Source: Kineococcus sp. TRM81007 (lineage in GTDB: Bacteria > Actinomycetota > Actinomycetes > Actinomycetales > Kineococcaceae). From it: a stretch of DNA of 44,501 nucleotides. The stretch is from the NCBI RefSeq assembly GCF_022669155.1, contig NZ_JALBVB010000030.1, positions 1 to 44,501 of the forward strand, given 5' to 3'. The position numbers and the translations under genes were made by a program. The notes beneath the pieces are model-generated. The model did no database searches. It saw only the letters and a list, made by a program, of their open reading frames with translations, and was not told the DNA's origin. This document shows, in pieces, positions 32,106-35,698 of the stretch. Every line of letters begins with the position of its first letter. Positions within the stretch are counted from its first letter, which is position 1.

Positions 32106-32681
32106 GTGACGAGCGCGACGATCGGCAGCACCACCACCTACGTGGTGGTCGACGGGGAGAACATCGACGCCACCCTGGGTGCGTCGATCCTGGAGGGGCG
32201 CCCCGCCCCCGAGCAGCGCCCCCGCTGGGAGCGCCTGCTGGACTTCGCCCGCACCACCCACCAGCAGCCCGCCAAGGGCCTGTTCTTCCTCAACGCCTCC
32301 TCCGGGTACCTGCCGATGTCGTTCGTGCAGGCCCTGCTGGCGCTGGGGTACCAGCCGATCCCGCTCTCCGGTGGCCCGGGCGAGAAGGTCGTCGACATCG
32401 GCATCCAGCGCACGCTGGAGGCGCTGGCCGGCCGCGAGGGCGACGTCCTCCTCGCCAGCCACGACGGCGACTTCCTGCCGCAGGTCGACGCCCTGCTGGA
32501 CGGCACCCGCCGCGTGGGCCTGTTCGCGTTCCGCGAGTTCGTCAACAACCAGTACGCCGCCCTGTCCGAGCGCGGGCTGAAGGTCTACGACCTCGAGGAC
32601 GACGTCCGCGCCTTCAACGTGGTCCTGCCGCGGGTGCGGATCATCTCCCTCGCCGACTTCGACCCGTTGCGCTACCTCTGA
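32106..32681 (+). CDS. NYN-domain (PIN-like nuclease) protein
   Basis: A 191-residue protein. It opens with the NYN signature TYVVVDGENIDATLG, in which the Asp of VDGEN is a metal ligand. Then come GLFFLNASSGYLPMSFVQALLALGYQPIPL, KVVDIGIQRTLEAL and the conserved acidic LLASHDGDFLPQVDALL, followed by VGLFAFREFVNNQY. NYN proteins are PIN-like RNases, and this single-domain type is common in actinobacteria. GTG start at 32106. Stand-alone. Confidence 0.85.
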   Translation: MTSATIGSTTTYVVVDGENIDATLGASILEGRPAPEQRPRWERLLDFARTTHQQPAKGLFFLNASSGYLPMSFVQALLALGYQPIPLSGGPGEKVVDIGIQRTLEALAGREGDVLLASHDGDFLPQVDALLDGTRRVGLFAFREFVNNQYAALSERGLKVYDLEDDVRAFNVVLPRVRIISLADFDPLRYL

Positions 32682-32762
32682 CCCCTCCCGCTTGCCGTTC
32701 CGGCACGAGCGCTCGACCCCGCGGCCACCCCGGGGCGAACGTTCACGGCGGAGGTGGTCCGA

Positions 32763-33830
32763 GTGGACGAGCAGGTGGACGAGCAGGTGGACGAGCAGGT
32801 GCTGGAGCAGGACGGACGGGTCCTGGACGTGGTGGTCGTCGGCGGTGGCCCCGCCGGCCTGAGCGGGGCGGTGGCGCTGGCGCGCTCGCGCCGGCGGGTG
32901 GTCGTGGTGGACGCGGGGGAACCGCGCAACGCGCCCGCCGAGGGGGCGCACAACTACCTCAGCCGCGACGGCGTCGCGCCGCGCGAGCTGCTGGCGATCG
33001 GCCGGCGCGAGCTCGCCGGCTACGGCGGTGAGGTCGTCGACGGTGAGGTCGTCGCCGCCCGCCGGCTGGACGGCGGGGGGACGGAGCGCTTCGAGGTGGT
33101 CCTCGCCGACGGGCGCGCCCTGCGCTCGCGGGCGCTGCTGGTGACCACCGGCGTCACCGACGAGCTGCCGGACGTGCCGGGCCTGCGTCAGCGGTGGGGC
33201 CGCGACGTCCTGCACTGCCCGTACTGCCACGGCTGGGAGGTGCGCGAGCAGCCGATCGCCGTCCTCGCCACCAGCCCGCTGTCCTTCCACCAGGTGCTCC
33301 TGTGGCGCCAGCTCAGCGACGACGTCACCGTCGTCCTGCACGGCGCCGAGCCGTCCGATGAGCAGCGGGAGCGGCTCGCCGCGCGGGGGATCGCCGTCGT
33401 CGAGGGGCCGGCCACCGGCCTGCGCGTGGAGGGCGGCGCGCTCACCGGCGTGGAGCTGGCCGACGGCCACGTCGTGCCCGCCCGGGCGCTCGCCGTGGCC
33501 TCCCGACCCCTCGTGCGCGAGGGGTTCCTCACCGGCCTGGGCCTGGTGCCGGCGCCGGTGGAGGCGATGGGTGTCGTGATCGGCACCGCACTGCCGGCCG
33601 GGCCCGCCGGGGCGACGGACGTGCCCGGCCTGCGGGTGGCGGGCAACGTCGCCGAGCCGATGGCGCAGGTCGGTTCCTCCGCCGCGGCGGGCACGATGGC
33701 CGGCGCCGCCCTCAACGCCGAGCTCGCCGCCGAGGACGCCGACCGCGCCGTGGCCGCCCGCCGCGCCGGTCCCGCGGTCGTCGTCCCGCGCGCCGAGGCG
33801 GCCGGGGCGGAGCGGGTGCCCGGCCGCTGA
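32763..33830 (+). CDS. Thioredoxin-reductase-like NAD(P)/FAD oxidoreductase
   Basis: A 355-residue flavoprotein. FAD-binding VVVVGGGPAGLSGAVALARS starts at residue 23 and the redox motif HCPYCHGWEV places the dithiol at C152 and C155, as in low-molecular-weight thioredoxin reductases. It ends with LRVAGNVAEPMAQVGSSAAAGTMAGAALNAEL. No thioredoxin gene is adjacent. GGAGG lies eight bases before the GTG at 32763. The N-terminus carries three perfect 12-base repeats encoding Val-Asp-Glu-Gln, unusual for the family. Confidence 0.87.
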   Translation: MDEQVDEQVDEQVLEQDGRVLDVVVVGGGPAGLSGAVALARSRRRVVVVDAGEPRNAPAEGAHNYLSRDGVAPRELLAIGRRELAGYGGEVVDGEVVAARRLDGGGTERFEVVLADGRALRSRALLVTTGVTDELPDVPGLRQRWGRDVLHCPYCHGWEVREQPIAVLATSPLSFHQVLLWRQLSDDVTVVLHGAEPSDEQRERLAARGIAVVEGPATGLRVEGGALTGVELADGHVVPARALAVASRPLVREGFLTGLGLVPAPVEAMGVVIGTALPAGPAGATDVPGLRVAGNVAEPMAQVGSSAAAGTMAGAALNAELAAEDADRAVAARRAGPAVVVPRAEAAGAERVPGR

Positions 33831-33873
33831 ACCCGGCCCGGGTGAACCCCTCCCGCCGGCGCGGGCCCGCCCG

Positions 33874-33879
33874 TACGGT
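33874..33879 (+). promoter_or_regulatory. Possible -10 element for the retron RNA
   Basis: TACGGT at 33874-33879 lies six bases before 33885, the first base of the left arm of the inverted repeat, so it is correctly placed for transcription to start there. No convincing -35 is seen. Confidence 0.4.
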
Positions 33880-33884
33880 GGCGG

Positions 33885-34056
33885 GTGTGCGGTGGTGGAC
33901 CGGGCGAGAGGGCCGAGCCGGTACGCCGGTGACGCCGCTCCGGGGTTCCCCCGGGGACAGCACGACGACCACGGCAGGGCGCCGCAGGGACGTCGCTGCG
34001 CTGCGCGCAGGACGGTCCCCGCACGACGGGACGGGTCGCCCGGCACCACCGCACGC
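33885..34056 (+). ncRNA. Candidate retron msr-msd non-coding RNA
   Basis: GTGTGCGGTGGTG (33885-33897) and CACCACCGCACGC (34044-34056) form a 13-bp inverted repeat with one G-U pair, matching the a1/a2 stem of retrons. Inside are three hairpins. The first is ACCGG-CG (33899-33906) with CGCCGGT (33924-33930). The second is CCGGGG (33940-33945) with CCCCGG (33949-33954). The third is a long msd-like stem at 33987-34019: GGGAC/GTCCC, GTC/GAC and CTGCGC/GCGCAG with loop TGC and two single-base bulges. GGGCG (33977-33981) can also pair with CGCCC (34037-34041). The right arm ends 18 bases before the reverse transcriptase start. In known retrons the RT primes at a G just after a1 and copies the msd part. 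Confidence 0.75.
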
Positions 34057-34074
34057 CCCCGCCGGGGCGGCCGC

Positions 34075-35394
34075 GTGAGCGCGGCCGTCGCCGCCGCCCT
34101 GGCGGCCGCCTTCCTCGACGCCCCGTGGGAGGCGCCGCAGCTGGCCGCCGCGGGACGGTGGGCGCTGGGCCTGCGCCGCGCCGCGTGGCTGGACCGGCTG
34201 GCCGCGGACGTCGTGGCGCAGCACCCCCGCCCGCCGTGCGACGCGCCGCGCGCCCTCACCGCGCTGCTGGTCGCGCACCCGGAGCTGGCCTCCGCGCAGG
34301 CGGTGGCCCGGCGGCGCGGCCGTCCGCTGCGGGTGCGGCACCTGGTGGCGGTGCCGGCGGCGATGGGCCGGGCCCGCTGGCCGGTGCCGCCCCTGGGCGG
34401 CGCCGCCGACCTGGCCGCCCTGCTGGAGGTGTCCCCGGGGGAGCTGGACTGGTTCGCGGACGTGCGCGGCTGGCAGCGGCGCGCCGAGGGCACCGCCCTG
34501 CACCACTACCGCGCGTCGTGGGTCGCCAAGCGCGGCGCCCCCCGGTTGCTGGAGGCGCCCAAGCCGCGCCTGCGCGCCCTGCAGCGCCGCCTGCTGCGCG
34601 AGGTGCTCGGCGCGGTGCCCGCCCCGCCGGTGGTGCACGGGTTCGTGCCGGGCCGCTCGGCGGTCACCGGCGCGCGCGAGCACTGCGGCGCGGCCGTCGT
34701 GGTGCGCGTGGACCTGACGGCCTTCTTCGCCTCCGTGGACGCCGCCCGCACCTACCGCGCGTTCCGCTCCCTGGGGTACCCGGAAGCCGTGGCGCACCTG
34801 CTGACGGGACTGACCACGCACGCCACCCCCGCCCGCGACCTGCGCGGCATGCCACCGGGCGGCGACGCCGACGAGCGGTTCGCGCTGCGGCACCGGCTGG
34901 CCGCCGCGCACCTGCCGCAGGGGGCGCCGACGTCACCGGCGCTGGCGAACCTGTGCGCGCGCTCCCTGGACCGGCGCCTGGCCGGCCTGGCCGCCGCGCT
35001 GGGCGCCCGCGTGACCCGCTACGCCGACGACGTGACGTTCAGCGGCGGTGAGGAGCTGGCCGCGGGGGCGCAGCGGCTGGTGCGGTGCGTCACCCGCGTC
35101 GCCGCCGACGAGGGCTTCACCGTGAACCCGGCGAAGACGACGGTGCGCGGGCGCGGTGAGCGCCAGCTCGTCACCGGCGTCGTCGTCAACGAGCGCCCGA
35201 ACCCGGTGCGCTCGGAGTTCGACCGGCTCAAGGCGGTGCTGCACCGCTGCGCGGTCCACGGCCCGGCGTCGGTGGAGGCGCCCGGCGGGGTGGACCTGCG
35301 CTCGCACCTGGCCGGGCGCGTCGGCTGGGTGGAGGCGCTCAGCCCTTCGAGGGGGCGGCGGCTGCGGGAGTCGTTCGACGCGATCGCGTGGTGA
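34075..35394 (+). CDS. Retron-type reverse transcriptase
   Basis: A 439-residue RT. Motifs in order: APKPRLRALQR (161-171), VHGFVPGRS (187-195), VVVRVDLTAFFASVD with catalytic D213, LPQGAPTSPALANLCARSLDRRL (280-302), the catalytic RYADDVTFSG with D318/D319, and RQLVTGVVVN with the VTG (366-368) typical of retron RTs. The retron NAxxH motif appears as G-A-R-E-H (199-203). About 100 N-terminal residues precede the RT fold, as in myxobacterial retron enzymes. No maturase or HNH domain, so not a group II intron. GTG start 34075; its 3' end overlaps DUF3817 by 56 bases on the opposite strand. Retrons generally act in anti-phage defence. Confidence 0.88.
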   Translation: MSAAVAAALAAAFLDAPWEAPQLAAAGRWALGLRRAAWLDRLAADVVAQHPRPPCDAPRALTALLVAHPELASAQAVARRRGRPLRVRHLVAVPAAMGRARWPVPPLGGAADLAALLEVSPGELDWFADVRGWQRRAEGTALHHYRASWVAKRGAPRLLEAPKPRLRALQRRLLREVLGAVPAPPVVHGFVPGRSAVTGAREHCGAAVVVRVDLTAFFASVDAARTYRAFRSLGYPEAVAHLLTGLTTHATPARDLRGMPPGGDADERFALRHRLAAAHLPQGAPTSPALANLCARSLDRRLAGLAAALGARVTRYADDVTFSGGEELAAGAQRLVRCVTRVAADEGFTVNPAKTTVRGRGERQLVTGVVVNERPNPVRSEFDRLKAVLHRCAVHGPASVEAPGGVDLRSHLAGRVGWVEALSPSRGRRLRESFDAIAW

Positions 35395-35698
35395 CGCCGA
35401 GGCGGCCGGTGCGGTGGGCCCAGCGCTCGAAGACGACGGTGAACAGCGGCGGGACCGAGGCGGCGAGCGCCAGCACGACCGTGCCGGGCCGCCACTTCAG
35501 CGTCCGCGCCGCCCAGAGGGCCGACAGGAGGTAGACGACGAAGGCGGCGCCGTGGATCGCGCCGGCGATCGGCACGCCTCCCTCGTGGGGGGTCTCGACC
35601 TTCAGGACCCGCTTGAGGAACATGGCGATCAGGAGCAGCGTCCAGGACACCGCCTCCACGAAGGCGATGACGCGGAACCAGCGGGCGGCGACGGGCAC
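35339..35698 (-). CDS. DUF3817 membrane protein
   Basis: A 119-residue integral membrane protein with the DUF3817 pattern: WFRVIAFVEAVSWTLLLIAMFLKRVLK, then PIAGAIHGAAFVVYLLSALW and TVVLALAASVPPLFTVVFERWAHR, i.e. three to four helices. Function unknown. Its last 18 codons overlap the end of the reverse transcriptase gene on the opposite strand, so the two transcripts must overlap. Confidence 0.85.
   Translation of the reverse strand: MPVAARWFRVIAFVEAVSWTLLLIAMFLKRVLKVETPHEGGVPIAGAIHGAAFVVYLLSALWAARTLKWRPGTVVLALAASVPPLFTVVFERWAHRTGRLGVTTRSRRTTPAAAAPSKG

Follow-up and report, generated by a model that had tools for sequence, protein, structure and literature searches.

A probable two-part retron cassette of structured RNA and reverse transcriptase in an actinobacterium

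A structured RNA and the reverse transcriptase (RT) gene downstream of it in Kineococcus sp. TRM81007 very probably form a two-part retron cassette in an actinobacterium, as judged from sequence comparison. The cassette lies in the window, by which we mean the whole stretch of 44,501 nucleotides that was analysed (contig NZ_JALBVB010000030.1). In favour of a retron we counted the structure and covariation of the RNA, the co-occurrence of RNA and RT, the class of the RT, its position in a tree and its fold. Against it we counted a priming motif that reads AGA and not AGC, an RT motif that reads GAREH, the weak fold of the predicted single-stranded DNA, the five of 67 sources in which the RNA was not matched and the lack of a two-hexamer promoter. 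The features of the locus are as follows.

33874-33879, + strand: -10-like box TACGGT; the left arm starts 5 nt after it, and its position is conserved in the family
33885-34056, + strand: msr-msd RNA of retron type, 172 nt (fold z -3.96, matches of models R1 and R2 at 33885-34055, covariation)
33885-33907, + strand: arm a1, outer part 33885-33897 and inner part 33900-33907 (fold and helix 1 of the family model)
33908, + strand: candidate priming (branch) guanosine, within A33907-G33908-A33909 (family conservation)
33911-33936, + strand: msr hairpin 1, variable in length and sequence (fold and unfitted alignment)
33938-33956, + strand: msr hairpin 2, CUCCGGGG-NNN-CCCCGGGG, the most conserved element
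33963-34035, + strand: probable template of the RT-DNA, copied from 34035 leftwards, with bounds inferred from the a1/a2 geometry
33984-34022, + strand: msd hairpin, outer stem 33984-33991/34015-34022 and tip stem 33996-34001/34005-34010
34036-34056, + strand: arm a2, inner part 34036-34043 and outer part 34044-34056 (same basis as a1)
34075-35394, + strand: retron-type RT, 439 aa, GTG start (Pfam, PADLOC, tree and fold)
34075-34365, + strand: N-terminal extension of the RT, about residues 1-97, a predicted five-helix bundle
32106-32681, 32754-33830 and 35339-35698: neighbouring genes for an NYN-domain protein, an FAD oxidoreductase and a DUF3817 protein

The earlier note had described a 13-bp inverted repeat enclosing strong hairpins, and 33885-33897 indeed pairs with 34044-34056, with one G-U; once G-U is allowed the outer arms make a 15-bp run (33883-33897 with 34044-34058). 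Dinucleotide shuffling of 33828-34080 produced a gapless stem of at least 15 bp at a span of 120-220 in 2 of 300 trials, and 2 of 443 windows of the contig contain one. Stems of at least 13 bp at the same span occur in 34 of the 443 windows, so that the arms alone are only moderately unusual; in this GC-rich contig a 13-bp stem by itself is weak evidence and the case rests on comparison. There is also a second inverted repeat overlapping this region, with arms of 14 nt that are 93% complementary (33837-33850 with 33942-33955). The RNA, folded as 33880-34062, gave -117.9 kcal/mol compared with -101.3 +/- 4.2 for shuffled sequences (z -3.96, 0 of 200 as low), and the enclosed hairpins appear in this computed fold. 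The hairpin placed at 33987-34019 by the earlier note recurs in the family consensus, where 33984-33991 pairs with 34015-34022 and the cap 33996-34001 with 34005-34010. Beyond the stem already described, and after two unpaired bases, CCGGGCGA at 33900-33907 pairs with UCGCCCGG at 34036-34043. This inner block adds 8 bp to the a1/a2 stem, closing it at A33907:U34036. The proposed extent of the RNA, 33885-34056, agrees with the matches of our covariance models at 33885-34055, and the gap from the right arm to the GTG start at 34075 is 18 nt, as had been claimed. Rfam gave no match at gathering score within the window.

The RT has counterparts of 59-66% identity in five of ten congeneric genomes, and in all five the arms together with the same internal motifs lie upstream of it. 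A covariance model, R1, was trained on the six congeneric RNAs (that of the window included) and searched in 67 sources with the RT or its relatives. It gave one match per source in 58 of 67 (52 of the 61 untrained), over the full model length and with E-values from 9e-26 to 0.015; all 57 matches outside the window lie on the strand of the RT and end before the RT match. A second model, R2, built on the 58 R1 RNAs, recovered four of the nine loci that R1 had missed (L035, L040, L042 and L045). When R1 was run on the nine with filters off it returned 248 matches up to E 10, the best of which (E 0.0096 to 0.027) fall in L048 away from its RT; those at the expected place in L045, L040, L035 and L042 had E-values of 0.03 to 0.49. 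In five of the 67 sources (L048, L050, L053, L054 and L094) neither model matched an RNA at the E-values applied. Their RTs are only 29-41% identical, and L050 has no DNA upstream of the match. R2 also matched three of four plasmid relatives, namely those of Burkholderia, Dietzia and Tsukamurella, with no match in Methylobacterium, and had no match with E < 0.5 when tried on RTs of other retron types, viral RT loci and group II loci, six of each.

Covariance analysis across homologues with the same RT family, the check proposed in the earlier note, found covariation in both the arms and the hairpins. Of the cells in the alignment of all 58 RNAs, 92.3% are standard pairs, compared with 36-47% when the partners are slid by 1-3 columns, and both sides change in 41 of 49 pairs. 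The covariation score was 0.512 vs 0.150 shuffled and at most 0.077 slid, and there were 506 double-changed cells vs 141 shuffled and 46-104 slid, cells that are not independent events because the sequences share ancestry. Helix 1, in the a1/a2 stem, has double changes in 13 of its 13 pairs, with 93.2% of cells paired. Helices 9 and 10, which form the msd hairpin, are paired in 96.6% and 97.7% of cells and show double changes in 12 of 13 pairs. Helix 7 (msr hairpin 2) is paired in 98.2% of cells; of its nine pairs three are invariant, two vary on one side and four on both. Since this alignment had been fitted to the structure, 28 of the 58 RNAs, picked by hand, were aligned by MAFFT alone and folded anew. 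This recovered the a1/a2 stem, the CUCCGGGG hairpin and the msd hairpin, with double changes in 27 of 41 pairs, as well as a closing stem at the place of msr hairpin 1 (columns 36-38 with 69-71). We also observed that the tip of the msd hairpin (approximately GCGCU-N-CGCGC; A2 columns 183-188 with 203-210; 33996-34010 in the window) is conserved in sequence in most relatives, which is unexpected if pairing alone is needed; the DNA copy may be recognised at this site.

The earlier note had pointed to a TACGGT box placed so that transcription would start at the left arm. The box is present and correctly placed, and it belongs to a family-conserved -10-like element: a TANNNT starting 2-20 nt before the RNA was found for 49 of the 58 homologous RNAs, 36 of them at -10/-11, vs 11 of 580 upstream windows taken as control, and was absent before the other nine. 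A sigma-70-type promoter with both hexamers did not emerge from 33800-34120, where TACGGT has no -35 consensus partner. The RNA lies directly 5' of the RT gene, and the first in-frame start after it (the search for it began 6 nt before the end of the RNA) is within 50 nt in 44 of the 57 loci and at most 285 nt away. This arrangement would also suit an RNA that is never reverse transcribed and acts only on the RT gene, as its structured 5' leader or attenuator, a reading we hold to be very improbable: the RNA has a closed long-range stem with hairpins inside it, the A-G where this stem ends is nearly invariant, 33800-34120 holds no terminator-like site, and such RNAs are copied by known relatives of this RT class.

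A at 33907 is found in 55 of the 58 family RNAs and the following G (33908) in 57, while on the opposite side U at 34036 is found in 55 and the preceding G (34035) in 57. Because these bases are kept family-wide, the a1/a2 stem can be said to end at a nearly invariant A-G / G-U junction; at the candidate priming site GAG is invariant in 28 of 28 sequences of the unfitted alignment. G33908 is likely to be the priming base and 34035 the first base of the template. According to a 2019 review the priming guanosine of retrons sits in a conserved AGC (PMC6868368). The window has AGA, and the third base in the 55 AG RNAs is A in 23, G in 23 and C in 9, so that AGC is present in 9 of 58 relatives and the typical signature is missing here. 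The earlier note had the DNA start next to 34043; as the a1/a2 stem extends to A33907:U34036, the start is now expected near 34035. In the proposed mechanism one transcript would begin at about the left arm and contain the msr-msd RNA followed, after a gap of 18 nt, by the RT. Arms a1 and a2 would pair through 13 bp plus the inner 8 bp and present the conserved G33908, from which the RT would prime. Copying of the RNA would begin at about 34035 and proceed leftwards through the msd hairpin, and the product would be a branched RNA-DNA whose DNA part measures roughly 55-75 nt. The predicted single-stranded copy of 33963-34035 folds slightly better than shuffled sequences (z -1.69, 11 of 200 as low). 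The RNA structure, its co-occurrence with the RT, the conserved -10-like box and the RT class come from computation; we infer the 2'-5' branching, the ends of the DNA, which hairpin the RT would hold and any function.

The RT itself carries the motifs that had been read from it, LPQGAPTSP at 34912-34938, YADD at 35020-35031 and VTG, the mark of region Y, at 35170-35178. Its region X (NAXXH) reads GAREH, with A and H kept and N replaced; among surveyed retron RTs VTG occurs in 47% and NAXXH in 59% (PMC4244168). The protein matches Pfam RVT_1 at 7e-22, the sole RVT_1 match in its genome, and over its whole length, N-terminal extension included, the PADLOC profiles RT_other (9e-162) and RT_outgroup (5e-154), which also match the four relatives tested (L103, L104, L024 and L030). 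The next best PADLOC profile, RT_XIII (1.4e-84), covers residues 104-437 and has 109 positions before its aligned part. Type XIII was rejected, RT_outgroup and RT_other scoring 229 and 255 bits above it. A group II intron RT was likewise rejected (TIGR04416 at 42.7 bits vs a cut-off of 300, and a separate clade), as were Drt2 (26.1 bits vs a cut-off of 390, E 4e-6) and Drt3a (17.4 bits vs a cut-off of 200, E 0.002).

For a tree we picked 40 sequences by hand for diversity, comprising 31 of the family, six plasmid-borne retron RTs and three group II RTs, with DGR and DRT enzymes compared by profile and fold only. L093, L046, L049, L047, L041, L051 and L038 were left out as short, frame-broken, truncated or over-long, and L112 gave no usable ORF. 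The 31 family RTs form one clade (support 99/99), and a 100/100 branch parts the family and the six retron references from the three group II RTs. The phylogeny proposed as a check in the earlier note thus places this RT with retrons and not with group II. The AlphaFold2 model of the RT (pLDDT 92) found retron RTs in all of its 18 best Foldseek matches. By VIA it aligned from residue 98 to 439 with Ec86 (Z 27.0, rmsd 3.3, 294 residues, 28% identity), with Z-scores of 19.4-19.9 for DGR, G2L and group II RTs and 17.8 for DRT2, although one retron entry, 9l7p, scores only 16.5. These comparisons bear on the alternative that a retron-type RT copies its RNA by another route (DRT-like, protein-primed or repeat-making) and makes no 2'-5' branch. 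The relaxation of AGC to AGN, the lack of a detected effector gene (see below) and the use of noncoding RNA by some DRT RTs would all sit well with it. Still, Drt2 and Drt3a score far below the retron models, Ec86 is structurally closer than DRT2 on the Z-scores above, and a long a1/a2 stem that closes on an A-G / G-U junction belongs to the architecture of retrons, so that we regard copying by another route as improbable.

Some irregular frames were seen among the RT genes. In the window the RT gene and the DUF3817 frame are convergent and share 56 nt at their 3' ends (35339-35394). In L047 (3557-5644) the RT-domain ORF continues into pentapeptide repeats and the best RT alignment breaks at query residue 347, which is a frameshift or a fusion. 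The ORFs of L036 (3185-5044, 620 aa) and L019 (3743-5326, 528 aa) are over-long compared with the usual 410-490 aa and have no extra Pfam domain. In L093, L046 and L049 the RT frames are interrupted or short and the RNA still matches the full model, so these may be decaying copies or sequence errors.

Ahead of the RT core lies a domain that is present across the family and covered by the RT_outgroup and RT_other profiles. Residues 1-94 modelled alone gave a five-helix bundle (pLDDT 91). Searches with this domain returned nothing significant by Foldseek against PDB and BFVD (best E 4.5 and 0.82), by VIA against 61 chains (best Z 4.9, below noise level), by sequence profile against PDB (best E 0.35) or by Pfam for 11 family members (one match, ssDNA_TraI_N at 0.037); an absent match is no proof of a new fold. 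The domain carries a net charge of only +6 in the window (residues 1-97); in 11 relatives, taken as far as DWFAD, the value is +2 to +8. We therefore do not use charge to argue for RNA binding.

The neighbourhood was searched for an effector. In six of six RT-bearing genomes of the genus the cassette is flanked by the NYN-domain gene on one side and the convergent DUF3817 gene on the other, with extra DNA between NYN and cassette in five of them, the window included. G002 has, in this order, the NYN stop, 33 nt, RNA, 10 nt, RT and DUF3817, leaving no room for a further gene since only RNA and RT lie between the flanking genes. The RT was not matched in G003, G005, G008, G010 and G011. There NYN and DUF3817 are spaced, between their matched parts, by 79 nt (G003) and 64 nt (G010), by about 1.6 kb (G005 and G008) and, in G011 from the other genus of the family, by 120 nt; G004 also lacks an RT match, and its contigs end at this place. 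All 12 genomes searched have NYN, and all six without a found RT have DUF3817. Both genes exist with or without the RT and are therefore unlikely partners.

Across 65 loci (flanks of 1.5 to about 9 kb) we clustered ORFs of at least 90 aa directly, with no gene caller, and considered the 18 largest clusters. The widest covers ten loci, six at one downstream place in Micrococcaceae-type loci and four elsewhere, and the rest mostly reflect lineage synteny. Among ORFs of at least 30 aa within 1 kb, clustered in 62 of the 65 loci, the 12 largest clusters span at most three genus labels. Seven reach that number; six of them count the doubtful L005 as a label and the seventh consists of a convergent ORF from five Pseudonocardiaceae loci, which in two loci gave no Pfam or PADLOC match. 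No neighbour common to distant lineages emerged from these 18 and 12 clusters, and neither genus synteny nor the clustered ORFs of at least 30 aa revealed an effector gene in the cassette. A separate observation concerns the convergent RT neighbour of Micrococcaceae-type loci (L008:5327-6313, - strand), an oligopeptide-type ABC ATPase by Pfam that matches PADLOC mad3 at 3e-30; we take this match as probably reflecting general ATPase likeness.

With no effector gene found in the cassette, its gene content lends no support to a role in phage defence. It could still be an ordinary tripartite defence retron whose partner acts in trans or is a neighbour (NYN, FAD oxidoreductase or DUF3817), as these three genes adjoin the cassette in the window and two of them flank it throughout the RT-bearing genomes of the genus. 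We think this unlikely, given the presence of NYN and DUF3817 in genomes without a found RT, the lack of a PADLOC match for the four neighbours scanned (these three and a luciferase-like gene) and the lack of a shared neighbour in the clusters above. Within the retron reading any extra function most likely resides in the helical N-terminal domain of the RT itself, or else in a partner whose gene lies elsewhere, and the job of an effector could fall to either of these, or the msDNA could have another role.

RNA and RT occur together, and the components needed to make msDNA are present and co-evolve. Within the genus the RNA is found in six of 11 genomes, identical to the six with the RT, and at the level of the order in ten of 149 genomes under stricter filters, all ten of which carry the RT. 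A wider survey found the RT in 14 of 396 genomes. The four carriers beyond those ten are L089, L092 and L093, with the RNA by R1, and L094 without it, whose RT match is 37% over residues 147-384. Hosts with the RNA, their phyla taken from record titles and tree labels, are mostly Actinomycetota, together with Acidobacteriota (three loci), Planctomycetota (three) and Pseudomonadota (L024, L035 and L102). One record, L005 (WNZI01000030.1), is titled Vibrio cholerae strain 35D and holds an RT and RNA of the same family. Its neighbour genes cluster with those of the Arthrobacter loci L008, L010 and L014, so the label or the assembly is probably wrong.

The phage records and viral contigs searched held nothing close to the family. 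The former gave eight RT matches, none covering 80% of the query and all below 60% identity, and the latter six RTs at 25-36% identity. Plasmid records gave 50 RT matches, none covering 80%, and the best six listed were 44-50% identical, four of which were taken for testing. Values of dN/dS (NG86) were 0.300/0.590 for the window vs G002 and 0.088/0.348 for G007 vs G006, which suggests constraint, with dS unreliable at this GC content.

One tentative possibility is that the family is a single-gene class of retron without a separate toxin, spread over Actinomycetota, Acidobacteriota, Planctomycetota and Pseudomonadota, in which the N-terminal bundle would be the effector or the part that gates it, or in which the msDNA would have a chromosomal role outside defence. 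Such a role would fit both the fixed chromosomal place of the cassette in the genus and the absence of close relatives from the phage collections. Retron function has been studied in systems whose RT and msDNA keep a separate toxin in check. A conserved RNA-RT pair that lacks such a toxin would show whether msDNA serves another purpose, or whether the RT can be the weapon by itself. Our alignment also offers a template that can be tested, from about 34035 to 33963, and a candidate base for priming, and RTs and RNAs from loci of 73-78% GC could serve genome editing in actinomycetes.

The RT matches over its whole length the PADLOC profiles RT_outgroup and RT_other, a retron class without a type number, and this class is thus already catalogued. 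The literature searched, which had Mestre 2020, the founding paper of the class, outside it, gave no description of the RNA or effectors of the RT_outgroup/RT_other class. PADLOC has its own retron RNA models (PMC9252829), and this RNA may have been described before. The 2019 review mentions putative retrons of Actinobacteria from bioinformatic surveys (PMC6868368); the present family may or may not be among them. Type XIII retrons have the next best RT profile, but leave the N-terminal extension unmatched, and the partners of this type did not turn up among the four neighbours scanned with PADLOC. Typical defence retrons have an effector gene, whereas none was found in the cassette here. Ec86 differs in the same respect, and also in that the RT here has an extra N-terminal domain and the RNA has AGA instead of AGC. 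Yet the RT core from residue 98 to 439 is like that of Ec86, and Ec86 has the same layout as this cassette, the RNA followed by the RT.
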